NCBI GenBank assembly: GCA_937899835.1
Contig: CALCCE010000130.1
Coordinates: 1 to 62,125, forward strand
Origin: an uncultured Flavobacteriales bacterium
GTDB lineage: Bacteria > Bacteroidota > Bacteroidia > Flavobacteriales_G > Salibacteraceae
Direction of reading: 5' to 3'
Length of the DNA stretch: 62,125 bases
Shown here: positions 6,751-61,945 of the stretch, one piece after another
Layout: each line of letters begins with the position of its first letter
Numbering within the stretch: the stretch's first letter is position 1
Notes under the pieces: model-generated
Told to the model about the DNA's origin: nothing
Database searches by the model: none
What the model saw: only the letters and a program-made list of their open reading frames with translations
Program-made: the position numbers and the translations under genes

Positions 6751-6823
6751 AAGCTATTTCAAGTCTTCATGAGCAACTTGGGCATCGGTCGGCTACAAGA
6801 CAGATTGCCCGGGTAGGTCGACC

Positions 6824-6831: not shown

Positions 6832-6836
6832 TAGGT

Positions 6837-45209: not shown

Positions 45210-45226
45210 ACACCTACATCACAAAC

Positions 45227-45985
45227 ATGAGAGAAAAGATTGTTGCCGGAAACTGGAAGATGAATAAAAACCGCACCGAGGCCAAAGCTCTGGTGAGCGA
45301 GTTACTGAAAGAATTCAAGCACAAACCTGCACCAGGGGTAACGGTGGTAGTGGCTCCTCCAATGCCTTTTACGGGCGAGGTGGTGGATCAAACTGCTGGT
45401 ACGAGTGTGCAGGTAGGCGCACAAAATTGCCACCAGTCCGAATCTGGGGCATACACGGGCGAGGTAGCCGCAGAAATGCTCAAATCCATTGGTGTGCAAT
45501 ACGTTATCTTGGGGCACTCCGAACGCCGGACCTACTACGGAGAAACCGATGCTTTTGTGGCCGCAAAGATCGATCGTGCGCTGGAGCATGATTTGGTGCC
45601 CATTTATTGCTGCGGTGAATTGTTGGAGGAGCGCAAAGCAGGTCGCCATTTTGAAGTAATTGAAGCACAACTAAAAGCGGCTTTGTACCACCTTCATCCT
45701 ACGGAGATGGCCAAAGTGGTGATTGCTTACGAACCCGTTTGGGCTATCGGCACTGGCGAGACCGCTACTCCTGAGCAAGCCCAGGAAGTACACGCCTTTA
45801 TCCGTCAAAAAATTGCCGATCAATACGGCCGTGAATTGGCCGAAGGGTGTGCTATCCTCTACGGTGGCAGTTGCAAGCCTTCCAATGCACAGTCCTTGTT
45901 TTTACAACCCGATGTGGATGGTGGACTCATTGGCGGAGCATCGCTAAAGGCCGCTGATTTTGCTGCCATCGCCCATTCCTTCTAA
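45227..45985 (+). CDS. tpiA: Triose-phosphate isomerase
   Basis: The 252-residue TIM barrel carries VAGNWKMNK with the active-site Lys, YVILGHSERR with the His, and AYEPVWAIGTGETATPEQAQ with the catalytic Glu loop. ILYGGSCKPSNAQSLFLQPD is the phosphate loop; Cys replaces the usual Val of YGGSVKP. It interconverts dihydroxyacetone phosphate and glyceraldehyde-3-phosphate. It ends 2 bp before prmA. Confidence 0.97.
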   Translation: MREKIVAGNWKMNKNRTEAKALVSELLKEFKHKPAPGVTVVVAPPMPFTGEVVDQTAGTSVQVGAQNCHQSESGAYTGEVAAEMLKSIGVQYVILGHSERRTYYGETDAFVAAKIDRALEHDLVPIYCCGELLEERKAGRHFEVIEAQLKAALYHLHPTEMAKVVIAYEPVWAIGTGETATPEQAQEVHAFIRQKIADQYGRELAEGCAILYGGSCKPSNAQSLFLQPDVDGGLIGGASLKAADFAAIAHSF

Positions 45986-45987
45986 TC

Positions 45988-46824
45988 ATGGATTACGTAG
46001 AAGTAGCTTTTCGGGTGCATCCTGCGCATCCCGGGCGCGACCTCTTGGCCGATGCCCTCGGAGAAATTGGCTTTGAAAGCTTTGTAGAAGAAGGGGAGGA
46101 GCACCTGTTGGCCTACATCCTGGCCAGCGACTTTGACGAAGACCGCTTGAACAAGCTGGATTTCTTGCAAGAAGCCTGGTTAGAAACCAGTTGGAGCCAC
46201 AAAATTATTGCTGGTCAAAACTGGAATGCGGCTTGGGAAAGTCAATTCGAGCCCATTGCCATTGACACCCGCTGTCGGGTACGGGCCAGTTTTCATCCCA
46301 ACGACGGAGCTTTCGATCACGACCTGGTGGTGGACCCTAAAATGGCCTTTGGAACCGGGCACCATGCTACTACCTTCCAAATGCTGGAACAATTGTTGGA
46401 ACTGGACGTAGACGGGAAAACGGTGTTGGACATGGGATGCGGAACGGGTGTATTGGCCATTTTAGCGGCTCAACGAGGGGCTACCGAGGTGGTGGCCATC
46501 GATATTGATGCGTGGGCCTATGAGAATACCTTGGAAAATGTGGCGCGCAACCTCAATCGGGAACTCGTTGTTCTTCAAGGGGATGTGGGCCACTTGGGCA
46601 AACGCTCATTTAATGTTATTTTAGCCAATATCAACAAAAATGTGATCCTGAGTGATCTTTCGAGCTACGCGCAGCACCTTGCCCCCAATGGTGATTTGCT
46701 GATGAGTGGTTTTTATGAAGAAGATGCGCAAGATCTCATTCAACTTGCTGGTCCGTTGGGCCTACAAGTTGTTCGACAAGGTGTCCGCAACCGATGGGCA
46801 CTGCTTCATCTGAAGAAAAACTGA
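45988..46824 (+). CDS. prmA: Ribosomal protein L11 methyltransferase
   Basis: The 278-residue protein has a substrate-binding N-terminal domain (residues 1 to about 90) and a SAM-dependent methyltransferase: MAFGTGHHATTFQMLEQLLE, VLDMGCGTGVLAILAAQRGA as the SAM loop, then AIDIDAWAYENTLENVARNL and FNVILANINKNVILSDL. It trimethylates Lys and N-terminal residues of L11. It directly follows tpiA with a 2-bp gap. The next, giant gene begins 10 bp later. Confidence 0.94.
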   Translation: MDYVEVAFRVHPAHPGRDLLADALGEIGFESFVEEGEEHLLAYILASDFDEDRLNKLDFLQEAWLETSWSHKIIAGQNWNAAWESQFEPIAIDTRCRVRASFHPNDGAFDHDLVVDPKMAFGTGHHATTFQMLEQLLELDVDGKTVLDMGCGTGVLAILAAQRGATEVVAIDIDAWAYENTLENVARNLNRELVVLQGDVGHLGKRSFNVILANINKNVILSDLSSYAQHLAPNGDLLMSGFYEEDAQDLIQLAGPLGLQVVRQGVRNRWALLHLKKN

Positions 46825-46834
46825 TCGTCTTTCT

Positions 46835-49800
46835 ATGCCCTTGAATCGACTCTCTTGGCTGCCACTCCTGGTTTTATTGTTCCTCGCTTCCGTTAGCCAG
46901 GGGCAAATCACCATCAAAAAATTCACACAGGATTCTACCATCTTTCTGGAAGAAGTAACCACCCTGCTCACCGATTCCCGAAAAAAGGAGGGAAAAGATT
47001 TTATTGAGCAGTTTACCCCGGTTTGGCACGGTGGCGTATTTACCGAGCAAGAGCGCAAAGAGGTATACCGGATTTGTGATTTTATGCTCAAAAAGAAAAT
47101 GCGGCCTTTCCCAGATTTTGAGTCTTTTCTGTTTTCCCTTATCAGTTTTAAGAATTCGAAGCAGCCGCCTGAAAGTTTCAAAGCCTGGATTTCGAGCCTG
47201 GAAACCTTGATTGATGGCCGTAGTAGACGAAAATTTACCGACTACCTGTCGTTTTGTAACAACCTCTTTTCTGAAAACCTGGTATTTTCTTCGGCCACCA
47301 CCAAGTGGCAATCCGATAGCCGCGATTATTCTTTTGAGATTGATAAGGGGCGGCCCAAAATTGTTTTTCCGTCCCTGCGATTGGCGTGTTATGCCAAAGG
47401 CGACAGTTCGGTGATTCAAAACACCTCTGGCGTTTATTTTCCGATTGACAAAAAGTGGATCGGAAAAGGAGGTAAAGTGACTTGGGAACGGGCTGGATTC
47501 AAGGCCGATCAGGTTTTTGCGGAGTTGAACAATTATGTGATCGAAACCAAAAGGTCGACGTATACGGCCGATTCAGTGGTATTTACCAACACCATTTACT
47601 TTGATCAACCGCTGATAGGAAAGCTTTCTGAACGGGTATTGGCCAACGTAAAACCAGAAAAAGCATCGTTTCCAAAGTTCGATTCTTACAGCAAGCGACT
47701 CAAAATTACCAACCTCATACCCAGCCTCGATTACGATGGTGGTTTTGCCCAGTATGGGGCTAAATTCATTGGATCGGGTAACGAAGAAAGATTGGCTCAG
47801 CTCATCATCAAACGGCATGACAAACCTTTTTTGATTGCTGCTTCTATTCAGTTCACCATCCGGGTCGACCGGATTGTCTCCCGGCGGGCTCAAATCACCA
47901 TTCGCCTTGATCAGGATTCGATCGTTCATCCGGGTTTGTCGCTACGATTGCTGACCAATGAGCGCAGAGTTACCCTCATTCGAGAGAATGAAGGGGTGTC
48001 TAAGAGTCCTTATTTCAATACCTATCACCAGATCGACATGTTTTTCGAGGCCCTGTACTGGAACATCGACGATCCAATCATCAAGTTGGGTCCCATTCCG
48101 GGTAGTTCAGACCGTACTGCGTTGTTCGAGTCGGACGAATATTACCGTGAGTACCGCTTCGACCGACTTCAGGGACTGGAGATGACCCACCCCTTGGTGC
48201 GTATTAAAGATTGTGCGGTAAAATACGACACCAACTTCCTATCGGCCCGAGATGTGTCTTTTTGCATGAAAATTTCGGAATCGCAGGCCCGACCGATGTT
48301 GATGAAACTCTCGAATCAAGGGTTTCTCACCTACGATTATAACACCGATGAAATTTTGATCAAGGACCGTTTGTTCAACTACATCCTGGCGAAATCAGAA
48401 CAACGGGACTATGACGTGATTCAGTTCAATTCTTCCTTAGAACGCCGGGACCAAACCGACAATAACGCCACGCTCAACCTTCTGAATTATGACATGACCA
48501 TCAACGGGATCAAAAAGATTTTCTTGTCGGATTCGCACAACGTGTTTCTTCGTCCCGCTGGTCGAACGATTATTCTGAAAAAGAACCGGGATTTTACCTT
48601 CAGTGGCATTATTAACGCGGGGCGTTTCGAGTTTTTCTGTCGCGACAACAGCTTTAGTTACGACGATTTTAAGATAGACATGCCCAATGTTGACTCTTTG
48701 CGCTTGAGCGTTGAGGTGGGACAAAAAGACGAATATGGCCGACGGAAAAGACGGCGGGTACGCACGGTGATTGAAAACATTACGGGGGAACTGTTGATTG
48801 ACCGACCGGGGAATAAATCGGGGTTGGAGTCTTTGTCCGAATATCCCATTTTTAAATCGTTGGAGGATTCTTACGTTTTTTATCAGCGGGCAGAAGTGCA
48901 AGGTGGAGTATACAAGCGTGACAATTTTTACTTTCACCTCGAGCCCTTTGTGTTCGACAGTTTGGATAATTTCCGAAAAGAGGGAATTCGGTTTGATGGT
49001 ACATTCCAGTCGGCAGGGATATTCCCCGATTTTGAGGAGACACTTACCCTGCAACCGGACTATTCTTTAGGGTTTGTGCGTTCCACGCCCAAGGCAGGTT
49101 TTCCGATTTACGGTGGTAAGGGAACCTACAAGAAAGAGATCAACATGAGCCATGAGGGACTGCGCGGAGATGGTACTTTAAAGTACCTCACTTCGACGGC
49201 AGAGTCGGACGATTTTATATTTTTCCCCGATTCTACCAACGGCGTGGCCCACAACCTGGTGATTGAGGAGCAAATGGGTTCGGTGCAATTCCCACCGGTT
49301 ACAGGTGCCGACATTTACTTGCATTGGGAGCCATACCGAGACCAAATGGCCTTGCGCAATACCAAAGAACCTTTCATTTTTTACGATGGTAACTCTAACC
49401 TTGATGGAAACCTCAACCTGCAGCCATCGGGCCTTTTGGGCGGTGGTTTGTTTGCCTTTGCAGAAGCGGAGTTGGAATCGGAAGAGTTTAAATTCGAGTT
49501 TTCTGAATTTTTTGCCGATACGGCGGACTTCCGGCTGAAAACCAAGAACGACAACCTGGATCAGCTTTCTTTCTCTACCAATAATGTGGATGCGCACATC
49601 GACTTTGCCAATCGGAAAGGGGAGTTTGTTTCCAACGGTGGTGGTTCCTACGTGAACTTCCCGGTCAACCAATACATCGCCTACATGGACCGCTTCACCT
49701 GGTACATGGACGATGATCAAATTGAGCTTTCTGCCGGTAAAGGCAAAACCAAAAGTGCAAATGAGCTGGCTTTTGAGGGATCCCGGTTTATATCCACCCA

Positions 49801-51304
49801 CCCCAAACAAGACTCACTCGATTTCTATTCGGTGGCAGCACGCTACGATTTGGCTTCGCACATCATTAATGCGAAAAAGGTAGAGTTCATTTCGGTAGCG
49901 GATGCCCTCATCTATCCGCGGGATGGAAACGTGGTGATTGAGGCCAAAGCGAAAATGCAGCCGCTGGACAGTTCCAGTGTGGTAGCCAACTCCATTACCA
50001 AATACCACAAACTGTACAATACCAACATCAACGTCTATGGCAAGCGGAATTACGCCGGTTCAGGGTATTATGATTATGTGGACATTGAGAAAAACAAGCA
50101 AACCATTCACTTCACTACCTTGTCGGTAGATACCGCGGCACAGACCTACGGTACCGGTACCATTTTGGAAGAAGAGGCTTTCACCTTGAGTCCGAAATTT
50201 GAGTACAAAGGCGACATTCGCTTAGAGGCGAGCAACAAGTTTTTGAGTTTCAAAGGCAATACCCGAATTTTCCACGATTGCGAAAACTTGAGCCGACCCT
50301 GGGTGCGATTTACCGCCGAAATTGATCCGGAAGAAATATACATTCCGATTGATTCCAGCTTGCGGGATGAAAACGGTGGCAAGTTGGCCTCTTCGGTTAT
50401 GATCAATCGGGATTCGATTCATTTGTATTCCACCTTTGCCAGTCCGCTAAAAAGACGAAACGACTATGAGGTGTTGCCGGCCTTTGGATTCATGGTTTTC
50501 GATACCGAAGCCAACGAATACAAGATATCGAACCTCAGCAAGTTGAATACTCCTTCTTTGCCCGGTAACCTGTTGAGCCTGCATACTTCTTATTGCCGGA
50601 CCTACGCCGAAGGAAAACTCGATTTTGCGGCCAACCTGGGTAGGGTAGAAGTAACTCCGGTAGGCAACATCAACCACAGTTTTGACGACGACAAGCTGAG
50701 CTTTGATTTGATGATGCTCATCGACTTTTTTATGGCCCCCAACGCCATGGATAAGATGGCCAAGGCAATAACGTCTTATCCCGATTTGAAACCGGTGAAT
50801 TTTGAACGGCAGGTGTTTGAACGGGGCTTGTATGAATTGGTAGAGAAAAAAGATGCCGACAAGCTCATATCGCAGGTGGCACTATCGGGGCAGTTTCGGA
50901 AGTTTCCCAACGAGCTAAACAAAACCTTGTTTTTGTCGGAAGTGAAAATGAAATGGAACCCCGAAACCAGTTCTTACGTTTCATACGGTCAAATTGGATT
51001 GGGAAGCATCTTTAAAGAGCAAGTACACAAAATGGTAGATGGCCGCATTGAGATCATCAAAAAACGCAGTGGCGACATCATCAACATTTACATCGAGCTC
51101 GATCGAAAAAACTGGTACTTCTTTAGTTATCGCAGCAACCTCATGCAGGCAATTAGTTCTGATGCGGAGTTTAACAATGTGATCAAGGAAATGAAATCGG
51201 ATAAACGCAAACTGAAGCCCGAAAAAGGCAAAGCGCCTTATTCTTTTATCATGAGTTCTGAACGGAAAAAGACTGAATTCCTTCGAAAGTTTGATTCCTT
51301 GTAA
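46835..51304 (+). CDS. Giant exported beta-rich protein of 1489 residues, unknown function
   Basis: A signal peptide (LPLLVLLFLASVSQGQ) leads into a very long chain without membrane segments, and without any catalytic motif I can see. Strand-rich blocks alternate through the middle: FDGTFQSAGIFPDFEETLTL, YLHWEPYRDQMALRNTKEPF, DGNLNLQPSGLLGGGLFAFA, EFVSNGGGSYVNFPVNQYIA and VEFISVADALIYPRDGNVVI. They resemble the jelly-roll strands of LPS-transport OstA-like proteins, but the match is loose. The final 100 residues form a compact block (MVDGRIEIIKKRSGDIINIY, then a Lys-rich tail). It follows prmA by 10 bp and precedes plsY by 37 bp. A role in the outer membrane or periplasm is inferred only from the signal and fold. 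Confidence 0.8.
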   Translation: MPLNRLSWLPLLVLLFLASVSQGQITIKKFTQDSTIFLEEVTTLLTDSRKKEGKDFIEQFTPVWHGGVFTEQERKEVYRICDFMLKKKMRPFPDFESFLFSLISFKNSKQPPESFKAWISSLETLIDGRSRRKFTDYLSFCNNLFSENLVFSSATTKWQSDSRDYSFEIDKGRPKIVFPSLRLACYAKGDSSVIQNTSGVYFPIDKKWIGKGGKVTWERAGFKADQVFAELNNYVIETKRSTYTADSVVFTNTIYFDQPLIGKLSERVLANVKPEKASFPKFDSYSKRLKITNLIPSLDYDGGFAQYGAKFIGSGNEERLAQLIIKRHDKPFLIAASIQFTIRVDRIVSRRAQITIRLDQDSIVHPGLSLRLLTNERRVTLIRENEGVSKSPYFNTYHQIDMFFEALYWNIDDPIIKLGPIPGSSDRTALFESDEYYREYRFDRLQGLEMTHPLVRIKDCAVKYDTNFLSARDVSFCMKISESQARPMLMKLSNQGFLTYDYNTDEILIKDRLFNYILAKSEQRDYDVIQFNSSLERRDQTDNNATLNLLNYDMTINGIKKIFLSDSHNVFLRPAGRTIILKKNRDFTFSGIINAGRFEFFCRDNSFSYDDFKIDMPNVDSLRLSVEVGQKDEYGRRKRRRVRTVIENITGELLIDRPGNKSGLESLSEYPIFKSLEDSYVFYQRAEVQGGVYKRDNFYFHLEPFVFDSLDNFRKEGIRFDGTFQSAGIFPDFEETLTLQPDYSLGFVRSTPKAGFPIYGGKGTYKKEINMSHEGLRGDGTLKYLTSTAESDDFIFFPDSTNGVAHNLVIEEQMGSVQFPPVTGADIYLHWEPYRDQMALRNTKEPFIFYDGNSNLDGNLNLQPSGLLGGGLFAFAEAELESEEFKFEFSEFFADTADFRLKTKNDNLDQLSFSTNNVDAHIDFANRKGEFVSNGGGSYVNFPVNQYIAYMDRFTWYMDDDQIELSAGKGKTKSANELAFEGSRFISTHPKQDSLDFYSVAARYDLASHIINAKKVEFISVADALIYPRDGNVVIEAKAKMQPLDSSSVVANSITKYHKLYNTNINVYGKRNYAGSGYYDYVDIEKNKQTIHFTTLSVDTAAQTYGTGTILEEEAFTLSPKFEYKGDIRLEASNKFLSFKGNTRIFHDCENLSRPWVRFTAEIDPEEIYIPIDSSLRDENGGKLASSVMINRDSIHLYSTFASPLKRRNDYEVLPAFGFMVFDTEANEYKISNLSKLNTPSLPGNLLSLHTSYCRTYAEGKLDFAANLGRVEVTPVGNINHSFDDDKLSFDLMMLIDFFMAPNAMDKMAKAITSYPDLKPVNFERQVFERGLYELVEKKDADKLISQVALSGQFRKFPNELNKTLFLSEVKMKWNPETSSYVSYGQIGLGSIFKEQVHKMVDGRIEIIKKRSGDIINIYIELDRKNWYFFSYRSNLMQAISSDAEFNNVIKEMKSDKRKLKPEKGKAPYSFIMSSERKKTEFLRKFDSL

Positions 51305-51341
51305 TTATTTTATCTACTTTGCGGGCAACGCTGCCTGATCG

Positions 51342-52004
51342 ATGCTTCCGGCCGATAATATTGTAGCCCTGTTGCTCGCCTATTTGCTGGGGTCAATACC
51401 GACCGCCGTTTGGGTAGGGAAGGTCTTTTATAAAATAGACGTTCGCGAATATGGCAGTGGTAATGCCGGAGCTACCAATACCTTTCGGGTTTTAGGGATA
51501 AAGGCAGGAATTCCCGTTTTACTTTTCGATGTTTTTAAAGGTTGTGCTGCGGTTAGCTTTGTGCGGTTTTTCACCGATTATCATCCCGATTCTGCTGCTT
51601 ATGTCAACTTTCAGCTGGCTTTAGGGGTGTGTGCCTTGTTGGGGCACATCTTTCCGATTTATGTTGGTTTTCGTGGAGGAAAAGGCATTGCGACCCTACT
51701 TGGCATTATGATTGCCGTGCACTACCAGGCCGCCTTATCGGCTGCAGGAGTGTTTTTGGTAATTTTTCTTTCTACCCGCTACGTTTCGCTCGGTTCGATG
51801 CTGGCGGCAGTGAGTTTTCCATTTATCGTAATATGGGTATTCCATTCACGGATTCCTTCCCTCATCATCTTCTCTTTGTTCATTGCCATCATGGTGTTGG
51901 TGACCCACCAAAAAAACATCGAGCGGTTGTTGAAGAAGGAAGAGTCGAAAGCGAACCTTTCCTTTAAAAAACGTAATAAAAAGCAGGATGCAGAGAATGA
52001 TTAA
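51342..52004 (+). CDS. plsY: Glycerol-3-phosphate acyltransferase PlsY
   Basis: The 220-residue membrane protein begins LLLAYLLGSIPTAVWVGKVF, then REYGSGNAGATNTFRVLG with the GSGNxGATN motif, GHIFPIYVGFRGGKGIATLL with the second, and VSLGSMLAAVSFPFIVIW with the third. About five hydrophobic segments are present. The C-terminal tail is basic (HQKNIERLLKKEESKANLSF). It transfers acyl from acyl-phosphate to glycerol-3-phosphate at the inner membrane. A CTACTTTGC near 51316 is a weak promoter candidate. Confidence 0.95.
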   Translation: MLPADNIVALLLAYLLGSIPTAVWVGKVFYKIDVREYGSGNAGATNTFRVLGIKAGIPVLLFDVFKGCAAVSFVRFFTDYHPDSAAYVNFQLALGVCALLGHIFPIYVGFRGGKGIATLLGIMIAVHYQAALSAAGVFLVIFLSTRYVSLGSMLAAVSFPFIVIWVFHSRIPSLIIFSLFIAIMVLVTHQKNIERLLKKEESKANLSFKKRNKKQDAEND

Positions 52005-52009
52005 CTTTG
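52002..52009 (+). promoter_or_regulatory. Promoter -7 box of the PD40/SPOR giant gene
   Basis: TAACTTTG fits TAnnTTTG and lies 58 bp before the ATG at 52068, overlapping the plsY stop region. It gives a leader of about 50 bases. No -33 TTG at proper spacing is seen. Confidence 0.4.
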
Positions 52010-52067
52010 TGGCGGCTGACTCGTACCATATATTTAAACATTGACCTACAGCGGAGTAGACAACCCC

Positions 52068-55000
52068 ATGGCGTGCATGCGGCTGATCCTTTCATACCTT
52101 CTTTCCACCCTCCTTTTTCTCGTTTGTTCGGTAGCTCCTGTCATCGGCCAGGATATTGCTGAACTGGAGAAAACAGCGGACGGCTTTTTTGAAAAGCAAC
52201 AATATGCGGAAGCACTTCCTTTGTATTCCCAACTGTTGGCCAATTTTCAGGAAAATCCCGACTACAACTACCACTATGGTACTTGTGTGTTGTATGCCGA
52301 GGAAAATAAATTCGATGCTATTTCTTACCTGGCCTTTGCTTGCAAAAGCGAGGAGGTACCAGCAGAAGCCTATTTCCAACTGGGCAAGGCCTACCAGCTC
52401 AACTACGAGTTTAAGCGGGCATTGGTAGCCTACGAAAAGTTTAAATCCAAAACCAACGGCAAGCAACAGGCACAATACAACGTAGAACGGGAAATTGAAA
52501 CGTGTACCAACGGACGTAATCTGCTCCGTAATATTTCCGACATCAGCGTTACTGAGAAGAACAGTTTGAAATTAGAAGACTTCGCTAAAGCTTACAACAT
52601 GGAGGCTTTTGGTGGAAAAATCATTCGCAAAACCGAAGACTTCAAATTGAAGTACGACAAGAAGATCGACGAAGAGTCGGTGATGTACTTTCAAAAAAAC
52701 AGCGACTACATTTACTTCTCGAGCTATGGTGACAAAGGTGAAAATGGTCGGGATATCTACTTCGTCAAGCGCCAACCCAATGGCGACTGGTCCGACCCCG
52801 AACCGCTGAGTAGTGTCATCAATACGCCTTACGACGAACACTATCCCTTCATCCATCCCAATGGCAACAAGCTTTACTTTGCCTCCAAAGGGCACAACAG
52901 CATGGGCGGCTACGATATTTTCGAAACCACCCGCGACCCCAACACCGGGCGGTGGAGCAAGCCCGTGAACCTGGACTTTGCCGTCAATACGCCCGACGAC
53001 GACTTTCTGTTGATAACCGACGAAGAGGAAAAGACCGCCTACTTTGCGTCTACCCGTGAGAGTGCCCTGGGTGAAGTAACCGTTTACAAGATTCACCTGA
53101 ATCGGGTGCCTTTCAATGAAACCTTGATCAAAGGGCAATTCAAATCGGAGGAAAGCCTTTCGGCCACTATTACGGTATTAGATGCTGAAACCGAAAAAGA
53201 GGTAGGCATCTACCAAACCGATCGGAAAACCGGCGAGTATGCCATCAGTTTGCCAAATGGTGGAACATTCCTGTTTGTGGTGGAAATGAAAGGCAGCTCT
53301 ATTGCCCACAAGAGTTCGCCCATTAAACTGCCCAAGCTGAAGAATCCGCGTCCGCTCAAGCAGGAGATGCAGATCATTCGGGACGAAAAGGATTACGAAA
53401 AACTCTTGGTGAACAATGCCTTCGACGAGCAATTGGATGTAGAGTTGGCATTAACCGCCGAGTTGCTCCGCCAGAAAGCCAGTTTGAATGTGGGCGACTC
53501 GCCTCCGCCTCCCGGCCCTGGTCCCTCGCTCACCATTGTGGATGACGAGAACAACACAGCACCAACCGGAGCTGCACCCCTGGATGAAGGAGACGACCCG
53601 GAACCCACGGTTGTTGAAAACGAGGAGCCTGCTGTAGCGGAAGTCACAGAAACGCCGGTGGAGGATACAGAAGAAGGAGCTACCCCGGAGAACGAACCAA
53701 CCAACGATAATACATCCCCTTCGACTACTGATGAAGTGGCGACCGCTGCTGGTGATTCGGAAACCAATGTTAGCGTGGCAGCTGCTGCTCCCAGCCTGGC
53801 ACAAAAAGCTTACGCCAACGCCCAACTGATCGAAGACCAGGTGACCGCCTTAGAAACCAGTGCCGGAATTGCCTTGGCCCTTTCTCAGGAAAAAAGCTCG
53901 GCCGCCAAAACCAAAAATGAAGCGGCAGAAGCCATTCTGGGTACCCTTAGTTCGGTGCGCAACAAAGAAGAGAAGCAAAAGAAATCGGACGAAGCTTACA
54001 TTTTAAAGAAGCAGTCGCAACAATTTAGCGAAGAAGCCAAACTGGCCATTGAGCTTTCCGAAGAATTGGAAGCATTGGCGCAAGAGCGCTCCCAACAGCA
54101 AATTACCGCAGAGCAATACGCCCGTGAAATAGAAACGGAAGCGGGCACTGCGCCCGAGTCAGAATTGCAACGCAAGCTGGAAAAATCGGCCGAATTGGTA
54201 GCGCAGGCCAAAGGACCTACCAGTGTGGAAGAATTGATGGCCGAACGCCAAAAGGATTCGGAGGCCAAGCGCAACGAAGCCCTCGCTGAGTTGAAAAAGG
54301 CGCGGGAGTTGGAAGAAGAAGCCCGCCGATTGGAAGAAGAAATTGCCTATTTCAACACCGAATCGGAAGACCGCAAGAACAAAGACATGGCCGAGCAGCT
54401 CAAGGCGCAAGCCGCCGAGTCGGAAGCCAGTCTTGCCGAAATTAGAAGCGAACAACAGCAAGGCGGCACCAAAGCCGTGCGTTTGAAAGAAGAAGCGGAG
54501 CGCTTTGCCATGATGGCTTCGGTGAGCGAAGACCTCAACGAGGCGGCCAACTCGCCCAACCCTCCGGAGCCGGTTGAAATGTCTTCCGGTGACAAACAAA
54601 ACCTCCGCAGCGAATTGACTTTGGTGAGCAACCAAGTAGAGGAGGAACGCACCGATCTGGTGATTCCCGGAGCGGAAGACATTTTTATTACCGACACTGA
54701 AATCGATCAATTCGATGACCTTGAATCGGTGGTAGCAGTTAATGGTTACGACGATCCTGATCCGATCGAATCGCCACCTCCTGCTGCGGCTGATCCCGAT
54801 CCCACACCGGCTCCTGAAGCGACTGCTGATCGGATAGCGGATGCGGATCCCGCCACGACTACGCCGGAAACCGAAACCCCAGCCACTGATGAACCGGCTC
54901 CGGTAGTGGATGCAGCAGTGCTGATGGAAACCATTGCCGACGATTTTGAACCCCGTTTGTTTGAACAAGAGGCAGAAAGCGATGAAATGGTGCGCGAAGC

Positions 55001-58000
55001 TGCCAAAGCCGAAATTTATTCTGAATGGGCGCAACGCCTGGAATTGGAAGCGGGCGCTTTGCGCCAGCAACTCACCAGCAGTGCGGAACCCGATCCTGAG
55101 TTGGAGCAACGCATTGCCCGCTTGGACGGCGAAGCCCGCCGGAAGCGCAAACTGGCCGATGAGAGCTACGAAACCATTGCCGCCATGAGCGATAGCAATG
55201 ATGCCGAAGCACTGGCCGAAAATGCAGGTAATGGGGAACAAGAGGCAGAAAGCACCGATAATGAAAACCTGGGCTTCAGCGTTTCGGTGGATGCCCCTTC
55301 CAACTACACCGAAAGTTTCGAGAATCAGGTAGCGGAAGCCGAGGCTATTCCTGAGGCATCGGAGCGGGAAGCAGCTCTGGCACAAATTCACAACAATTGG
55401 CAATCGGCCATTGATGAGGAAATTGGTGAATTGCAAGAAAGCCGGCCCGAAGCCAGCCCCGCAGAGCAAAACATCATCGACGATCGGATTGCCCGACTGG
55501 AAACCGAATCGCAAACCCAGGCCGAAGAAGGGGCACGCCACAGCGAATCGGCCCTGGCTTTGGCGGATGCTTCCCCCGAAGCAAGCCCCAATGCGGAACT
55601 GCCAGCGGGTGAACCGGAATTGGCTACCGCCGACAATGTATCCGATACACCTGCTGCTACCGACGAACCACCGGCAGAAGAGCCCGGCAGCAACCTGGAC
55701 GACCAAACCATTGTGGTGGAAATACCGACCGACGATCCGGCGGTAGTAGCCGATGCAGTTGATCCTGCCAATGGTGATGCAACACCCGATCTGGAAGTCA
55801 CCGATCCGTTAGAAAATGGAACCGATACCGAGGGAGATTTAAGCAATGCGACTGAAACCGACGAACCGGTAGTAGCAGAACCTGAAACCGAAGTGGGAGC
55901 CCCTGCTATTGACACCGAAACACCCCAAGATCCTGAACCGGCCCTGGCCGATAATGCCGGTACCGAAAGCGAGGCAGACCCCACTCAGGCGCTCACAGAG
56001 GGAGAAGGCTTGACGGATGATCCTTTTACGGAGGTTGGAGCAGAAGACACCGACCCGGCTGAAGGCAATGAGGTAGCCACCGTTGATCCGGCGGACATCG
56101 ATCCTACCAACCTTGATCCGGCAACCTTGCCCATTTCTGCCTACGACCAAACTTTTGAAGGTCGCCTGGACAACCTGAGCGATCAACCCGAAGATCGGGT
56201 GATTGTAAAACGACTGGAAGTCAACCGGGAGTGGCTCACGGCCATCAATGGAGAAATCGACCAACTGGAAGAGGAAAAGGTGGGGGAGACCGATACCGAA
56301 ATTTTGCGGGAGTATGATGCTCGCATTGTAGGGCTGAAACAAAAAGCGCTGATGCGAGAGGCTGAAATTGCTTCGGATGAACCCAAAGCCGCAGAAATAG
56401 CTGCCTTGGCTGAGGCAGAAGAAAACCTTCCTGTAGAGGTTGCCGTTGGCAATTCGGCCATCGACGATGCCTTTACCGACGAGTTGTCGGAGATCAACCG
56501 TATCCCCGACGACCAACGCCGGAAAGCAGCCGAAGCCGACCTCTACAACCGTTGGGCCCAGGCCATTGATCAGGAAGTAGATCGTTTGAAAGCCGAACCT
56601 TCAAGTGATGAACCTACCGTTGTAGTGGAGCGTCAGAACCAGATTGCCGCTCTACAAAACCAGGCCAAGAGCCACCGCCAGCAAGCTACGGTGAGCCAAA
56701 CCCAGGCCAACGCATTGGCAGCAACCGTAGAGCCGAATGCCGTTGAAACCACCGACCCGGCAGGAACGGCTGACCCTACCGATCCTGGAGCAGTATCGGC
56801 CACCGCCACCTTGCCCGAACCTACCGATGAGCCCGTGCCTGCCACCCTCGCCGGATTGTCAGAAAGTGAAATTCGTGAATTGGAAACCACCATTCCCGAT
56901 CGGCCGAGCCTTGCCCGTACCTACCAATCAGATGCCCAATCGCTGGACAAAGATGCCTTCGACCTTGATAACGAAGCGGCCGACCTAAGGAATCAAGCGA
57001 ATGCAACCTCCAACACCGAACAAAAAGCTGACCTGAACCGGGAGGCACAACTTTTGGCACAAGATGCTCAAGACAAGCGACTGGAAGCAGTTGCCTTGCG
57101 GGAGCGCGCCCGTCGGATAGAGGTAGCAGAAGACAAGATTGTGAATGCGGTGCCCGGTGAAGTGCCCGAATCGGAAAAAGAATTGGCGCGTGCCGAGCGT
57201 TTGCAAGCCGAAGCCAAAGCCCGTCAAGCCCAGGCCGACACCGCCAGAACAGAGGCCGAATCGACCAACAAGCGCAAAGAACGGGAAGCCCTCATTGCCC
57301 GGGCCAACGGCTTGGAGCAACTGGCAGTAGAAAAGCTGGCCGAATCGGAGGAAAGTTTTGCTTTGGCCGCCGATTTGGAGAAAGCCGAAAAAGATGCTTT
57401 GGAGCGTTCTTTTGTCTTGAAAGATGCCCAGCGCGTAGCCTTACCCGAAGTGCGTACGCCATTGCCCGATGCAGAAGTGCCACGGGTGACGGCCATGCCG
57501 GAGTTTCTTAGCTATTCCGTGAAGCAGCAGCAATCTGCTAAGGTGTACCGAAAAGCCGCGATGATGTACCGATTGGCCGAAAACCTGGAAGCCGAAGCCG
57601 AGGGGGATAAAGTCGAAATGCAGGACCTCATGCTGGCCAGTGCACAAATAACGGACGAAAGCGCCAGGCAGGCACAGCTGGACCGGGCCAGGCAATTGGG
57701 CGAACGCCGTCAGCAACGCCTGGCTCAAGCCGATTCGATCAAAACCGAAGCGGCCTCCGTAGAACGAAAAGCCCTCTACCTGGAAAACGAAGCCAACCGC
57801 TACTTGTTGAAACAACCCGAAACGGTGTACATGGATATCCTGGCTTACAACGCCCGGGTGGACGTAGGTGCGCCTTCGGTAGTGGCGGTGAACACTGTAG
57901 CGCCTGCCGGTGGAACGAATCCTCCGGTTGTTGCTAACCCGGCCGTTGAAAATGAGGAGCCCGAAGTGGCCGGAGCGGTTGCGGTAGGTGGAAACGATAC

Positions 58001-59258
58001 CAGTCCGGAAAATAACCCCGCGGAAGATCCTGTGGCTGGAACTCCCGGCAATGAACTGGCCGACAACCCTCTGGCCAACGACCCTGTAGCTACGCCAAGA
58101 ACTGAAGTAGAACGCCCACGTGCCATTCAGCCCATGAACCTCAACCAACCGGTGAATGTGGCTACCATCGACCGCGTGCCGGATCGGGTAGAAGCGCCCA
58201 TCTTCAGCAAGGTTGAAGAGACCACTTCGGTATACAACGACACCAAGCCGATTCCAGAATTGAGCGACCTGCCCGAAGGACTGGTCTTCAAGGTGCAGAT
58301 CGGTGCCTTCCGCAACCCGATTCCGCAAGATATTTTCAAGGGCTTTGCACCCATTGCTGCCGAGCCTACCGATTTTGGTGTCACCCGTTACACCGCAGGT
58401 TGGTTCGGTGCTGAGTCCAATGCAGTGACGGCACGCGATGCCATTCGCACCATCGGCTATCAAGATGCTTTTGTGGTGGCTTACTTAAATGGAGAACGCA
58501 TTTCCATGGCCGATGCCCGTCGTCGGGCAGGCTCGGCTGCACCAGCAGCCGTTGCCGCAACTCCTCCGCCAGCGACAACCGGCGGAGCACGGGGGGGCGT
58601 GGTGAATTCCACACCGGGCGTAGCCAATGCCGTAGAAGGTATCAACGGTTTGTTCTACACCGTGCAGGTAGGCGTCTTCTCCCGCGAGGTGAGCGCCAAC
58701 GACCTGTTCAACATCGATCCTTTGGTGAGCGAGCAAACCAGCAACGGAGCTTACCGCTATTCCACCGGAATCTTTAGCAGTGTGCCCGAAGCTACGGTGC
58801 GCAAAGATCAAGTAGTGGGAGTAGGGGTAGCCGATGCTTTCGTAACGGCTTATTACAACGGAAAGCGCATAACCGTGGCTGAAGCCCGCCAGCTGGCCAA
58901 CGAAAACGGGCCAAACATCTTTACACAAGTGGGCGGAGGAACGGCTCCGGCTCCCGCCGATCCTGCCCCAACGGCTCAAGCGGGAGACATCACCTTCAAG
59001 GTGAATTTTGGCACCTACGCTGCCGATGTGCCCGTGAAAGATGCGGCCATCTTGCTATCGTTACAGTCCCGTGGAGTAGACCGCCAGAAAGCAGGAGGTG
59101 AGACCACTTACCTCATTGGTGATTTCAGTTCTTACGCTGAAGCACAAGCCCTGCAACAGGAAATTGAAGCAAAAGGAAAGGCTGGAATCACTATATTAGG
59201 GTTCGAAAACGGGCAAGCCATCAACCTGCAGGAAGCCATACAAAAATCTGGATCATGA
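52068..59258 (+). CDS. Giant PorE-like envelope protein: TPR, PD40, CRD, coiled coils, helical repeats, three SPOR-like domains
   Basis: The 2396-residue exported protein starts at the ATG at 52068 (the ATG at 52077 is an alternative; a TTG at 52041 is less likely). Domains in order: signal peptide (1 to about 27); TPRs (35-151; FFEKQQYAEALPLYSQLLAN); PD40 propeller (208-345; YIYFSSYGDKGENGRDIYFV, KLYFASKGHNSMGGYDIFET); carboxypeptidase-regulatory-like domain (348-421); acidic Pro/Thr/Glu linker; coiled coil (575-841); four 80-residue helical modules (958-1041, 1078-1166, 1358-1447, 1465-1551); a second coiled coil (1621-1928); and three SPOR-like domains (2072-2155, 2195-2275, 2306-2391). 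TPR-PD40-CRD is the PorE order. SPOR binds denuded peptidoglycan glycans and here stands in place of OmpA. Its stop overlaps clpS by 4 bp. Confidence 0.85.
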   Translation: MACMRLILSYLLSTLLFLVCSVAPVIGQDIAELEKTADGFFEKQQYAEALPLYSQLLANFQENPDYNYHYGTCVLYAEENKFDAISYLAFACKSEEVPAEAYFQLGKAYQLNYEFKRALVAYEKFKSKTNGKQQAQYNVEREIETCTNGRNLLRNISDISVTEKNSLKLEDFAKAYNMEAFGGKIIRKTEDFKLKYDKKIDEESVMYFQKNSDYIYFSSYGDKGENGRDIYFVKRQPNGDWSDPEPLSSVINTPYDEHYPFIHPNGNKLYFASKGHNSMGGYDIFETTRDPNTGRWSKPVNLDFAVNTPDDDFLLITDEEEKTAYFASTRESALGEVTVYKIHLNRVPFNETLIKGQFKSEESLSATITVLDAETEKEVGIYQTDRKTGEYAISLPNGGTFLFVVEMKGSSIAHKSSPIKLPKLKNPRPLKQEMQIIRDEKDYEKLLVNNAFDEQLDVELALTAELLRQKASLNVGDSPPPPGPGPSLTIVDDENNTAPTGAAPLDEGDDPEPTVVENEEPAVAEVTETPVEDTEEGATPENEPTNDNTSPSTTDEVATAAGDSETNVSVAAAAPSLAQKAYANAQLIEDQVTALETSAGIALALSQEKSSAAKTKNEAAEAILGTLSSVRNKEEKQKKSDEAYILKKQSQQFSEEAKLAIELSEELEALAQERSQQQITAEQYAREIETEAGTAPESELQRKLEKSAELVAQAKGPTSVEELMAERQKDSEAKRNEALAELKKARELEEEARRLEEEIAYFNTESEDRKNKDMAEQLKAQAAESEASLAEIRSEQQQGGTKAVRLKEEAERFAMMASVSEDLNEAANSPNPPEPVEMSSGDKQNLRSELTLVSNQVEEERTDLVIPGAEDIFITDTEIDQFDDLESVVAVNGYDDPDPIESPPPAAADPDPTPAPEATADRIADADPATTTPETETPATDEPAPVVDAAVLMETIADDFEPRLFEQEAESDEMVREAAKAEIYSEWAQRLELEAGALRQQLTSSAEPDPELEQRIARLDGEARRKRKLADESYETIAAMSDSNDAEALAENAGNGEQEAESTDNENLGFSVSVDAPSNYTESFENQVAEAEAIPEASEREAALAQIHNNWQSAIDEEIGELQESRPEASPAEQNIIDDRIARLETESQTQAEEGARHSESALALADASPEASPNAELPAGEPELATADNVSDTPAATDEPPAEEPGSNLDDQTIVVEIPTDDPAVVADAVDPANGDATPDLEVTDPLENGTDTEGDLSNATETDEPVVAEPETEVGAPAIDTETPQDPEPALADNAGTESEADPTQALTEGEGLTDDPFTEVGAEDTDPAEGNEVATVDPADIDPTNLDPATLPISAYDQTFEGRLDNLSDQPEDRVIVKRLEVNREWLTAINGEIDQLEEEKVGETDTEILREYDARIVGLKQKALMREAEIASDEPKAAEIAALAEAEENLPVEVAVGNSAIDDAFTDELSEINRIPDDQRRKAAEADLYNRWAQAIDQEVDRLKAEPSSDEPTVVVERQNQIAALQNQAKSHRQQATVSQTQANALAATVEPNAVETTDPAGTADPTDPGAVSATATLPEPTDEPVPATLAGLSESEIRELETTIPDRPSLARTYQSDAQSLDKDAFDLDNEAADLRNQANATSNTEQKADLNREAQLLAQDAQDKRLEAVALRERARRIEVAEDKIVNAVPGEVPESEKELARAERLQAEAKARQAQADTARTEAESTNKRKEREALIARANGLEQLAVEKLAESEESFALAADLEKAEKDALERSFVLKDAQRVALPEVRTPLPDAEVPRVTAMPEFLSYSVKQQQSAKVYRKAAMMYRLAENLEAEAEGDKVEMQDLMLASAQITDESARQAQLDRARQLGERRQQRLAQADSIKTEAASVERKALYLENEANRYLLKQPETVYMDILAYNARVDVGAPSVVAVNTVAPAGGTNPPVVANPAVENEEPEVAGAVAVGGNDTSPENNPAEDPVAGTPGNELADNPLANDPVATPRTEVERPRAIQPMNLNQPVNVATIDRVPDRVEAPIFSKVEETTSVYNDTKPIPELSDLPEGLVFKVQIGAFRNPIPQDIFKGFAPIAAEPTDFGVTRYTAGWFGAESNAVTARDAIRTIGYQDAFVVAYLNGERISMADARRRAGSAAPAAVAATPPPATTGGARGGVVNSTPGVANAVEGINGLFYTVQVGVFSREVSANDLFNIDPLVSEQTSNGAYRYSTGIFSSVPEATVRKDQVVGVGVADAFVTAYYNGKRITVAEARQLANENGPNIFTQVGGGTAPAPADPAPTAQAGDITFKVNFGTYAADVPVKDAAILLSLQSRGVDRQKAGGETTYLIGDFSSYAEAQALQQEIEAKGKAGITILGFENGQAINLQEAIQKSGS
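54940..55190 (+). repeat. Helical module, copy 1, in the giant protein
   Basis: The module encodes LFEQEAESDEMVREAAKAEI, YSEWAQRLELEAGALRQQL and ELEQRIARLDGEARRKRKLA. Copies are compared by the pattern F-x-x-x-L, a WAQ/W-Q helix, and an RIARL-type helix. Confidence 0.65.
55301..55565 (+). repeat. Helical module, copy 2, in the giant protein
   Basis: Encodes NYTESFENQVAEAEAIPEAS, then HNNWQSAIDEEIGELQ and NIIDDRIARLETESQTQ, matching copies 1, 3 and 4. It is separated from copy 3 by an acidic Pro/Thr linker. Confidence 0.65.
56141..56410 (+). repeat. Helical module, copy 3, in the giant protein
   Basis: Encodes YDQTFEGRLDNLSDQPEDRV, NREWLTAINGEIDQLEEEK and YDARIVGLKQKALMREAEIA. The helix order is as in the other copies, though the W is followed by LTAIN instead of AQAI. 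Confidence 0.65.
56461..56720 (+). repeat. Helical module, copy 4, in the giant protein
   Basis: Encodes DDAFTDELSEINRIPDDQRR, YNRWAQAIDQEVDRLKAE and NQIAALQNQAKSHRQQATV. Closest in form to copy 1 (WAQ helix). Confidence 0.65.
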
Positions 59259-59563
59259 AATTCGACACTCCCTGGTTCTCCGACACCGACGAAGCGGTTT
59301 TAACCGAGCCAGAAGTTGCTACCGACGAATTAACCGCTTCTGGTTTTTCACTCATTCTCTACAACGACGACGTCAATACATTTGATTTTGTGATCAAAAC
59401 CTTGGTAGAGGTATGTGAACACGATGTGTTGCAGGCCGAGCAATGTTCCATCATTGTGCACACCAAAGGCAAATGCGATGTGAAAAACGGAGCCTACGAA
59501 AAGCTGGAACCTATGTGTGTGGAAATGCTACGCCGGGGACTCAGCGCTAAAATCGAGAAATAA
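59255..59563 (+). CDS. clpS: ATP-dependent Clp protease adaptor ClpS
   Basis: The 102-residue protein has the ClpS core: FSLILYNDDVNTFDFVIKTL with the NDDVNT N-degron pocket, VCEHDVLQAEQCSIIVHTKG, and CDVKNGAYEKLEPMCVEML. The acidic N-terminal 28 residues are a typical flexible arm. It hands N-end-rule substrates to ClpAP. Its ATG overlaps the giant gene's stop by 4 bp (ATGA), so it is translated with that gene. Confidence 0.96.
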   Translation: MKFDTPWFSDTDEAVLTEPEVATDELTASGFSLILYNDDVNTFDFVIKTLVEVCEHDVLQAEQCSIIVHTKGKCDVKNGAYEKLEPMCVEMLRRGLSAKIEK

Positions 59564-59580
59564 ACCTTTTCGATCTTTCC

Positions 59581-59600
59581 TGGATGGTGATCACCATCCA
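59581..59600 (+). promoter_or_regulatory. Perfect 20-bp palindrome before the M48 protease gene
   Basis: TGGATGGTGATCACCATCCA is exactly self-complementary. It lies 20 bp before the M48 protease ATG at 59621 and 17 bp after clpS. No T run follows it, so it is not a terminator; an operator or mRNA hairpin is likely. Confidence 0.6.
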
Positions 59601-59620
59601 CTTCTCTTAGACAGCATACC

Positions 59621-60418
59621 ATGAAGCAAGTAGCCTTAACCCTGGCAGTGATTCTATTGATGAGTGCCTGTGGAAAAGTACCCATCACCGGAAGGAAACA
59701 AATCAACCTCTTGCCTGAAACTACCCTCATGAGCATGAGCGTAGCCAATTACCAAGAGTTTCTAAGCACCAACAAAACCCTCAGTTCCAATGCCAACAAC
59801 CAGGCGCAAATGGTGCAACGGGTAGGGCAGCGCATTGCCTCAGCGGTGGAAACCTACCTTAAGAAGCACGGCCAGGGCAAGCGGGTGAAAGACTACAAAT
59901 GGGAGTTTAACCTGGTGCAGGACGATGCGGTGAACGCCTGGTGCATGCCGGGTGGAAAAGTGGTGTTCTACACCGGTATTTTGCCCGTGACCAAAGACGA
60001 AGAAGGCCTGGCGGTAGTGATGGGCCACGAAATCGCCCACGCCATTGCACGGCACGGCAACGAGCGCATGAGCCAAACCCTGGCAGTGCAAGCGGGTGGG
60101 GTAGGCCTGGGTGTCGCGATGAGCGAAAAGCCAGAGCTGACCCAAAATCTTTTTATGCAAGCCTACGGTTTAGGCTCTAACCTGGGCATGTTGGCCTTTT
60201 CGCGCAGCCACGAATCAGAATCGGACAAAATGGGGCTCGTGTTCATGGCCTTGGCCGGGTACAATCCTGAAGCCGCAGTAGGTTTCTGGCAACGCATGGC
60301 CGCTTTGGGCGGACAAGCTCCCCCCGAGTTTTTGAGTACGCACCCCAGCCACGATACCCGTATTCAAAACATCCGCGAATTTCTACCGGAAGCCAAAAAG
60401 TATTACACCCCAAAATAG
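59621..60418 (+). CDS. M48-family metalloprotease lipoprotein (BepA/LoiP-like)
   Basis: A lipoprotein signal ends in ILLMSACGKV. NAWCMPGGKVVFYTGILPV leads into AVVMGHEIAHAIARHGNERM with the zinc HExxH motif, and ESDKMGLVFMALAGYNPEAA holds the third ligand Glu. THPSHDTRIQNIREFLPEA is the usual C-terminal helix. Members guard outer-membrane protein quality from the periplasm. The 265-residue size is right for the short form without TPRs. It is 57 bp after clpS, with a palindrome between, and 29 bp before the NfeD gene. Confidence 0.93.
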   Translation: MKQVALTLAVILLMSACGKVPITGRKQINLLPETTLMSMSVANYQEFLSTNKTLSSNANNQAQMVQRVGQRIASAVETYLKKHGQGKRVKDYKWEFNLVQDDAVNAWCMPGGKVVFYTGILPVTKDEEGLAVVMGHEIAHAIARHGNERMSQTLAVQAGGVGLGVAMSEKPELTQNLFMQAYGLGSNLGMLAFSRSHESESDKMGLVFMALAGYNPEAAVGFWQRMAALGGQAPPEFLSTHPSHDTRIQNIREFLPEAKKYYTPK

Positions 60419-60447
60419 TACTTTAGTGGGGTCTGCACTTAACTCCA

Positions 60448-60915
60448 ATGACCCTAACCGTAATTATCCTCATCATTGTTGCCGGCCTGGCCTTCGTTTT
60501 GGCGGAGATTCTGGTATTGCCCGGCGGGGTAGTGGGAATCATGGGTTTTGCCCTGATGATCACCGGGATTTATTTTGCCTACGGATTGGATACCAACACC
60601 GGGCACTTCGTGTTGACCGGTACGTTGGTACTGACGGGCGGAATCAGCTACATGGCCTTTAAGAGCAAGACCTGGAAGAAGGCTACCTTGCACACCAATG
60701 TAGCAGGCAAGGTGAACACCTTGAACGAAACGCCCGTGCAACCGGGCGACAAAGGGAAAACCACTTCGCGGTTGGCCCCCATGGGTACCGCAAAAATCAA
60801 TGGACATTACTTAGAAGTCAAATCACACGTGGCCTACCTCGACCCCAACACTCCGGTGGAAGTGGTGAAAATTGAAGGTGGCCAAATTACCGTTAAACCA
60901 AGCCTAAATGAATAA
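60448..60915 (+). CDS. NfeD-like membrane protein
   Basis: The 155-residue protein has two to three hydrophobic segments ([57 protein letters not shown]) and a C-terminal OB-fold ([39 protein letters not shown]). NfeD proteins work with flotillins; this one overlaps floA by 8 bp. The short form without a ClpP-like protease domain is typical when the gene is paired with floA. Confidence 0.92.
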
Positions 60916-61945
60916 CCTGTTAACCATCCTTCTGCAATCTGACGGCACCAGTCTGGGTGTGATGATTGCCATTGCCGTAGCCTCTCTGGTGGGCCTTTGG
61001 ATCTTCTTCTATTTTGTGCCGGTTGGCCTGTGGTTTTCCGCCTTGCTTTCTGGTGTGCGCATCTCCCTCATTCAGCTGGTGTTCATGCGCTGGCGGAAAG
61101 TACCGCCTTCCGTCATTGTGAAGGCCATGATCAACTCCAGCAAAGCCGGGCTTTCGCTGAGCCGCGATCAACTCGAAGCCCACTTTCTGGCCGGTGGAAA
61201 CGTCATCAACGTAGTGAACGCCTTGATTTCGGCCGATAAGGCCAACATTGGGTTGGACTTTAATTCCGCTACTGCCATTGATCTTGCCGGTCGGGATGTG
61301 TTTGAAGCGGTACAAATGTCGGTGAACCCAAAAGTGATCGATACTCCACCGGTAACTGCGGTAGCCAAAGACGGTATTCAATTGATTGCCAAAGCGCGGG
61401 TCACTGTTAGGGCCAACATCAAGCAATTGGTGGGTGGTGCCGGCGAAGACACCGTGTTGGCGCGGGTAGGTGAGGGCACCGTTTCGGCCATCGGCTCCGC
61501 CGACAGCCACAAAGCCGTGCTCGAAAATCCTGACAGTATCTCCAAAATCGTATTGAGCCGCGGCCTGGATTCCGGTACCGCTTTCGAAATTCTTTCCATT
61601 GATATTGCCGACGTAGACATCGGCAAGAACATCGGTGCCGGGCTGCAGATCGACCAGGCTGAGGCCGATAAGAGCATTGCCCAGGCGAAAGCCGAGGAAC
61701 GCCGTGCCATGGCGGTTGCTGAAGAACAGGAAATGAAAGCCAAGACGCAGGAGGCGCGTGCCAAGGTGATCGAAGCCGAGGCTCAGGTGCCCATTGCAAT
61801 CTCCGAAGCCTTCCGAAGTGGCAACCTCGGGGTGATGGATTACTACAAGCTGAAAAACATCCAGGCCGACACCACCATGCGCGACAACATTGCCAAACCT
61901 CCCGGAGGCGGCAACAAAGGCAGCAAGGGCAGCAGCGGTTCTTGA
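60908..61945 (+). CDS. floA: Flotillin-like protein FloA
   Basis: The 345-residue protein has an N-terminal membrane anchor ([20 protein letters not shown]) and an SPFH-like core: IRISLIQL-type start, [20 protein letters not shown], and [37 protein letters not shown] and [20 protein letters not shown] are signatures of FloA. A long helical stalk ([20 protein letters not shown]) and a Gly/Lys/Ser tail end it. FloA scaffolds membrane microdomains. Its start overlaps the NfeD gene. Confidence 0.95.

Follow-up and report, generated by a model that had tools for sequence, protein, structure and literature searches.

The window analysed here is a stretch of 62,125 nucleotides from an uncultured Flavobacteriales bacterium (GenBank assembly GCA_937899835.1, contig CALCCE010000130.1), and this report concerns one very large gene in it and the genes around that gene, all of which, with all the features given below, are on the forward (+) strand. 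The gene at 52068-59258 starts with the ATG at 52068, lies in a single open frame (52041-59258) and codes for a protein of 2396 amino acids (aa), which we call the giant. From its N-terminus to its C-terminus the giant is made up of a signal peptide, a head consisting of a TPR domain, a PD40 beta-propeller and a carboxypeptidase-regulatory-like domain (CRD), a long spacer, and a tail of three SPOR domains. The collection of full-length members comprises 95 distinct proteins, counting that of the window, so the giant is a conserved gene and not a chance frame. In a whole-protein Pfam scan PD40 scored above the cut-off and SPOR below it, and thus annotation at those cut-offs would present the giant only as a PD40 protein.

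Residues ~1-27 (52068-52148) form a signal peptide that is type I by eye (VIG/QD). Among 100 full-length members, a simple regular-expression search found an AxAQ-like site in 70 and a lipobox-like motif in two. The same kind of search found no lipoprotein signal in the giant, where FLVC in the window protein does not fit a lipobox, and the N-terminal signal sequence is the only membrane anchor seen in it. A cytosolic location is rejected on the signal sequence found across the family by eye and by motif search. Upstream, in the 63-bp gap between plsY and the giant, there is a promoter-like TTTG-N19-TATATTTA at 52006-52036, a form which we take to be the Bacteroidota-type promoter motif. The looser pattern was found three times in the window against 2.76 expected, which is chance level, and the exact form, written after the sequence had been seen and with one mismatch allowed, was found once against 0.23 expected. 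The element is therefore no more than a lead, a candidate promoter.

The head consists of the TPR domain (52155-52523; residues 3-125 of the structure model), identified by Pfam TPR_16, the predicted structure and fold matches; the short PD40 beta-propeller (52539-53108; model residues 131-320), identified by Pfam, the predicted structure and profile comparison; and the CRD (53118-53420; model residues 324-424), placed by Pfam in relatives, by the model and by colinearity with PorE, a protein of the type IX secretion system (T9SS). In a Pfam scan of 32 of the 41 N-termini, TPR_16 matched 22, the window's among them, PD40 matched 26, and CarboxypepD_reg matched seven, the window's own not being one of these; PD40 matched the giant with an E-value of 4.3e-8 in the whole-protein scan. 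The AlphaFold model of the head, built with 32 sequences, has a mean predicted local distance difference test score (pLDDT) of 92.5 and a predicted template-modelling score (pTM) of 0.85, and its order is TPR helices, a short propeller and a beta sandwich, the strands of the last lying where the CRD is expected. By our reading of the strands the propeller has three clear blades and extra strands. TPR folds dominate the lists of structure matches for the head in the PDB, and they fill the VIA-align lists, in which the propeller and the CRD were barely probed. When the head was compared by hhalign with 15 PorE-like proteins, the match had a probability of 100 and an E-value of 1.5e-39 and spanned the TPR, propeller and CRD, with the aligned head of the giant about 100 aa shorter than that of PorE, mostly in the propeller. 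Thus, the PorE-like order of the head, which had been proposed in a sequence-only reading of this DNA, is borne out.

The same reading had placed three SPOR-like domains at the C-terminus, and these were found at 58281-58502 by Pfam and the structure model, at 58650-58871 by the model and fold comparison, and at 58989-59222 by the predicted fold. Pfam SPOR matched all 35 C-termini scanned at E <= 0.01, the window's included (35 of the 37 available, L064 and L071 being left out), and in the giant SPOR scored 13.6 bits in the whole-protein scan and 36.9 bits in the isolated C-terminus, the PF05036 cut-off being 21. OmpA was found neither by Pfam in the window protein nor among the four families matched by the 35 C-termini. 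Structure prediction by segments, which the sequence-only reading had proposed, gave three SPOR-type units in the tail in addition to the fold of the head. The tail model has a mean pLDDT of 84.6 and a pTM of 0.44, and we take this low pTM to reflect flexible joins between the units. It has the beta-alpha-beta-beta-alpha-beta fold of SPOR, with the first helix short or absent in domains 1 and 2. Structure comparison by VIA matched CwlC (Z 7.4, root-mean-square deviation (rmsd) 2.3, 69 residues aligned), RlpA (Z 6.9, rmsd 2.4, 70 aligned), DamX (Z 5.6, rmsd 3.2, 76 aligned) and FtsN (Z 4.8, rmsd 3.5, 75 aligned); the top row (Z 7.5) was an exported Burkholderia protein without SPOR in its title, and unrelated folds appeared from about Z 6 down. 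A stacked profile of the three tail domains found the SPOR domain of CwlC at E 1.4e-6, and a sequence search of the PDB with the second domain alone gave no match. The set of SPOR segments comprised 31 of the 36 that were computed, themselves taken from every third row.

The SPOR domain of RlpA is described as contacting glycan through Q270, A273, F274, a contact at 276 (N276) and a basic patch of three arginines, and its ligand as glycan stripped of stem peptides, the denuded septal glycan (PMC6895207). The first SPOR domain of the giant has Q-x-x-A-F-x-N with the same spacing: Q2077, A2080 and F2081 are each present in 35 of the 35 C-termini, N2083 in 29, and R2107 is invariant in all 35; the basic patch was not mapped residue by residue in this comparison. 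In the second domain Q2200 is present in 35/35, R or K at 2230 in 35/35, F or Y in 34/35 and A in 10/35. The third domain keeps the predicted fold and not the contact residues, the window having N2313 where Q is found in 16 of the 35. Since the contact residues are kept in the first domain, partly in the second and not in the third, one SPOR domain and perhaps a second appear suited to binding denuded glycan, judging by these residues. The giant is thus like CwlC, RlpA, DamX and FtsN in its predicted SPOR fold and in the contact glutamine of domains 1 and 2, but it differs in having three copies of SPOR, joined to a very large scaffold whose head is of the TPR-propeller type, and in the first helix of domains 1 and 2 being short or missing.

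Relatives were searched for in 60 genomes, the window's own included, and there was some match in all 60 and a match at E <= 1e-60 in 49. Most of the strong relatives carry frames of ~1,500-2,300 aa; their matches to the head (residues ~1-500) and to the tail (~2031-2395) are separate, at ~31-51% identity, and the middle of the giant is mostly unaligned. Both modules were present in 36 of the 40 relatives' loci that were fetched. Two others (L059 and L076) are cut by contig ends, and the remaining two, L056 (1579 aa) and L058 (1183 aa), keep the head and the position before clpS-nfeD-floA, with no Pfam SPOR in the tail segments scanned. Among the named loci, the best 80 of 351 relatives, 62 have both modules at full length, and their record titles are of metagenome-assembled genomes labelled Flavobacteriales, Crocinitomicaceae, Vicingaceae, Cryomorphaceae, Fluviicola, Bacteroidetes, Bacteroidia, Bacteroidales, besides a small number of other labels. 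Of 296 genomes sampled from the phylum, searched by scoring only the first few candidates per genome, only the window's genome (head 623 bits, tail 420 bits) and one other, G103 (509 and 282 bits), gave strong matches, and therefore the family is limited to certain lineages. The survey for the same domain order that the sequence-only reading had called for thus gave 100 full-length proteins with both modules (36 from the relatives' loci, 62 named, that of G103 and the window's), of which 95 are distinct at 97% identity; the longest, L121, L126, L128 and L131, reach 2833-3197 aa.

The family also has much smaller forms. Two distant genomes have a TPR-PD40 protein of 475-477 aa directly before NfeD and FloA, and 60 genomes of their order, the second order considered here, gave 23 family matches at E <= 1e-30. 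Leaving out G358 (656 aa), these fall into 11 short forms of 467-506 aa without a match to the family SPOR profile, two intermediates of 637 and 822 aa, whose tails are SPOR-like (E 1.5e-38 and 9.4e-20, respectively, against the family profile), and nine giants with frames of 1615-2462 aa, two of which (L263 and L266) are cut at contig ends. Pfam SPOR scored 27 bits in the 822-aa form and was not listed in the 637-aa form. The family as a whole is therefore a length series from 467 to 3197 aa.

The spacer of the window protein (53493-58157; residues 476-2030) is 1,555 aa long. A middle of about 1600 residues of coiled coils, acidic linkers and repeats had been described from the sequence, and the acidic linkers and the repeats stand: acidic proline-rich linkers (proline fraction 0.13-0.19, and lysine plus arginine <= 0.01 in four of five) alternate with proline-poor segments (proline <= 0.04). 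The coiled coils are unproven, a periodicity test having given z of 0.1-1.6 in the spacer and only 0.6 in the TPR control, so that it is uninformative. Four copies of an 80-residue repeat are at 54933-55178 (residues 956-1037), 55305-55553 (1080-1162), 56142-56375 (1359-1436) and 56460-56708 (1465-1547). A profile made from these copies, which were chosen by eye in the window protein, found copies in 19 of 40 relatives' proteins and in 37 of the 100 full-length members (the giant of the window among them): one copy in 10, two in 16, three in seven and four in four. Among the 95 distinct members the spacer ranges from 641 to 2324 aa (standard deviation (sd) 230) and the total length from 1482 to 3197 aa, the head having a median of 441 aa (sd 22) and the tail one of 368 aa (sd 60). 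A spacer of variable length between steadier ends is as expected of a tether.

The sequence-only reading had also suggested that in the giant SPOR stands in for the OmpA domain of a T9SS PorE, and this is not supported. The giant and PorE (P. gingivalis PG1058) are alike in that both are exported and have the order TPR, beta-propeller and CRD in the head, and both have a predicted protein scaffold with a wall-binding end (PorE as described in PMC7192894 and PMC5053529). However, the giant differs from PorE in having SPOR, no OmpA_C that could be found, no lipobox, a spacer of 1,555 residues and a shorter head. The OmpA_C domain of PorE is described as binding the stem peptide (PMC7192894), and since SPOR binds stripped glycan, putting SPOR in the place of OmpA would exchange one ligand for another. 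PorE homologues with C-terminal extensions have been reported in a paper whose main text does not contain the word SPOR (PMC5053529). A separate full-length PorE-like protein coexists with the giant in the same genome (G000:C304; 698-aa frame, 515 bits, model positions 4-627 of 648), and Pfam finds OmpA, PD40, TPR and CarboxypepD_reg in it. The PorE model matched 59 of the 60 relatives at E <= 1e-60, with 54 reaching E <= 1e-100 and only two above the cut-off of 600 bits, and the weaker of these matches may be paralogues. The giant itself scored 84.9 bits against the curated PorE model NF052230, whose cut-off is 600, and only over residues 211-404. Against NF053607, the family of the OmpA-like protein CHU_0125, it scored 99.2 bits, with its PD40 region aligned, which is far below the cut-off of 620, and no OmpA domain was found in it.

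The separateness from PorE is also seen in the tree made with IQ-TREE from the TPR and PD40 regions, in which 36 giants, intermediates and short forms are one clade with support 99/99, apart from 13 PorE rows and two PD40 paralogues from the window's genome. A 60% fill filter kept 51 of the 53 input rows, the two that were dropped being PorE rows; the 36 rows are 14 first-set giants (L056, L058 and 12 taken from the 100 full-length members), nine second-set giants, two intermediates and 11 short forms. The short forms nest beside the two intermediates (98/92 and 100/96), and this suggests that they arose by loss of the tail, but tree tests did not reject the topologies in which the SPOR-bearing forms are a single clade (p 0.22) and in which all the giants are together (p 0.53).

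Other proteins of the window's genome share domains with the giant. Two further PD40 proteins are in tandem at 1014-6947 of G000:C95 (L186), one of 1091 aa with OmpA and the other of 857 aa without a listed OmpA match. At 667-2781 of G000:C259 (L189) there is a protein of 705 aa with SPOR domains, a DUF6089 match of 28 bits (cut-off 23.2) and a weak OMP_b-brl match; it is SPOR-bearing and perhaps in the outer membrane.

From TIM (45227) to FloA (61945) the genes of the window share one strand and either overlap or are separated by short gaps. Their presence in other loci was tracked for the window's own gene set, counting loci with enough flank, on the same strand and within 9 kb. PlsY acyltransferase (51342-52004) is directly upstream of the giant and was found in 27/39 relatives' loci and 18/63 named loci. 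Downstream, the start of ClpS (59255-59563; 35/38 and 53/75, mostly within 100 bp) overlaps the stop of the giant (ATGA), and it is followed by an M48 metallopeptidase that by eye is an apparent lipoprotein (59621-60418; 21/36 and 32/67), NfeD, identified by Pfam (60448-60915; 23/35 and 3/64), and the flotillin FloA, identified by Pfam and NCBIfam (60908-61945; 21/32 and 2/57). Further upstream is a conserved protein of 1489 aa, U1489 (46835-51304; 30/36 and 33/57), beside PrmA. It has a signal-like start and a mean column identity of 52% in 18 of the 31 proteins over 1,400 aa, and belongs to a large family found in 11 of the 296 sampled phylum genomes, more than the giant; neither NCBIfam nor a profile search of the PDB gave a match to it, and no Pfam match exceeded the cut-off.

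The recurring neighbourhood of clpS and nfeD-floA, of which the sequence-only reading made no mention, ties the giant gene to floA by position. FloA was found at E <= 1e-60 in only 37 of the 60 relatives, and this explains much of the shortfall of FloA near the giants in them. In 30 of the 33 relatives with both the giant and FloA, FloA is just downstream on the same contig, as read by combining the coordinates of both genome searches (for G019 by frame length). In the second order, FloA adjoins the family gene in 12 of 20 FloA-bearing genomes, namely with short forms in 8/9, intermediates in 2/2 and giants in 2/9. The order in the window is giant, clpS, M48, nfeD, floA, and in two of these giants (L262 and L267) and both intermediates (L270 and L271) it is family gene, clpS, nfeD, floA. 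The regions fetched around other FloA loci, seven of them in the same class (six genomes) and 13 in other classes, had no family gene flagged in them, though at a few of these loci FloA itself was unflagged because longer overlapping frames hid it. The NfeD-FloA operon as described in PMC11222466 has nfeD first and floA second and names no periplasmic wall-binding member; here the gene of the giant is upstream of it, often with clpS and M48 between.

Taken with the domains, this position leads us to propose, with a probability of about 0.5, that the giant is soluble and periplasmic, a scaffold by which a protein-binding head is anchored to peptidoglycan, and that it works in the envelope process served by NfeD-FloA. 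Going by its signal sequence, the giant would be secreted to the periplasm without being lipidated, and there its C-terminal SPOR domains, if they share the chemistry of known SPOR domains, would bind glycan that has lost its stem peptides, a form concentrated at division sites; the wall it binds is probably denuded septal glycan. The TPR-propeller-CRD head would hold a partner protein, and the spacer, acidic and variable in length, would provide reach and not a specific surface. From the periplasmic side the giant would probably serve NfeD-FloA in membrane organisation, envelope protein quality control or the control of wall synthesis. Since the head is kept beside nfeD-floA with or without the tail, the core job would be with the head and the flotillin neighbourhood, and SPOR and the spacer would be a lineage-dependent anchor; this points to the head and the position next to clpS and nfeD-floA, and not T9SS, as what defines the family. 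The presence of clpS and M48 in the same run suggests envelope or protein quality control as a shared theme. In B. subtilis flotillin loss is reported to alter peptidoglycan synthesis (PMC7360373), which is compatible with a wall-bound partner without demonstrating it, and in S. aureus FloA-NfeD is reported to stabilise unfolded clients (PMC11222466). A part in an envelope system, as had been suggested from the sequence, is supported, as are the long spacer and the export signal, and searches of an open-access library turned up no description of the family, as judged by titles and listings. A bolder proposal, which is doubtful and which we put forward tentatively, is that the giant is the periplasmic arm of the bacterial flotillin machinery, its SPOR-ended spacer, ranging across the family from almost no length to about 2,300 residues, coupling NfeD-FloA membrane domains to septal or remodelled wall, with lineages having shed or gained the tether while the head stayed by floA.

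Several observations weigh against the scaffold that we propose and its link to FloA. As for wall binding, the VIA matches of the SPOR model have Z under 8, which is not decisive alone, Foldseek gave no match for this model at E <= 1e-3, the third SPOR domain is without the contact glutamine in the window, and the short forms, having no detectable SPOR, imply that wall binding is not needed everywhere. As for FloA, it is absent at E <= 1e-60 from 16 of the 49 giant-bearing relatives, and four relatives have FloA without the giant. The three exceptions to adjacency, G036, G038 and G040, are of one genus and have the giant and FloA on different contigs, the giant running into a contig end in G036 and G038; in the second order, seven of the nine giants are on a contig other than that of FloA, one of them (G374) being cut by a contig end. 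Among the 57 named loci with enough flank, counted within that flank, FloA is nearby in only two, both of them copies of relatives already counted. Lastly, the soluble domain of S. aureus NfeD is reported to face the cytoplasm and to bind FloA there (PMC11222466), and a periplasmic head could therefore not touch such a complex directly; the link would be through membrane parts or indirect.

These absences of FloA are what one would expect if the giant were a conserved envelope gene placed in a housekeeping neighbourhood together with FloA but having no functional connection to it, and TIM, PrmA, PlsY and ClpS are neighbours too; this explanation is on the unlikely side because in two orders the family gene, in forms of ~470 to >2,000 aa, precedes (clpS-)nfeD-floA. 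The three predicted SPOR domains, the first with its contact residues, and the binding of SPOR to denuded septal glycan would also suit a division protein of the FtsN, DamX and DedD kind, brought by SPOR to the septum, where the head or spacer would act on wall synthases or hydrolases. We consider this unlikely, since no membrane anchor other than the signal peptide was seen, SPOR-less members exist, no division gene is among the scanned window neighbours, and, as the case of RlpA shows, a SPOR protein does not have to be a division activator.

It is more unlikely still that the giant is a T9SS or gliding accessory, that is, a PorE paralogue anchoring a part of the secretion or gliding machinery to the wall through SPOR. 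Its head is homologous to that of PorE, and GldL was found in 60/60 relatives and in 20 of the 22 family-bearing genomes of the second order, but GldL present in every relative searched is uninformative there, and the two genomes without GldL keep the short form, a weak point because they are of one genus. The PorE-like protein of the same genome, the PorE-model matches in 59/60 relatives, the separate clade and the lack of T9SS genes among the window neighbours scanned (44130-61945) all argue against it. A general stabiliser between outer membrane and wall, working like Pal or CHU_0125, would agree with the long periplasmic tether and with a head related to the CHU_0125 family; we hold this to be very unlikely, as no lipobox, OmpA domain or outer-membrane anchor was found and the score is far below the cut-off of that family.

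The periplasmic scaffold that we prefer belongs to a family of exported giants that is present in several Bacteroidota lineages and is set apart from the PorE of T9SS. If its link to floA is functional, bacterial flotillins, which are described as acting on the cytoplasmic side, would gain a wall-bound periplasmic partner. The length series from 467 to 3197 aa also offers a natural experiment on the length that an envelope tether requires.

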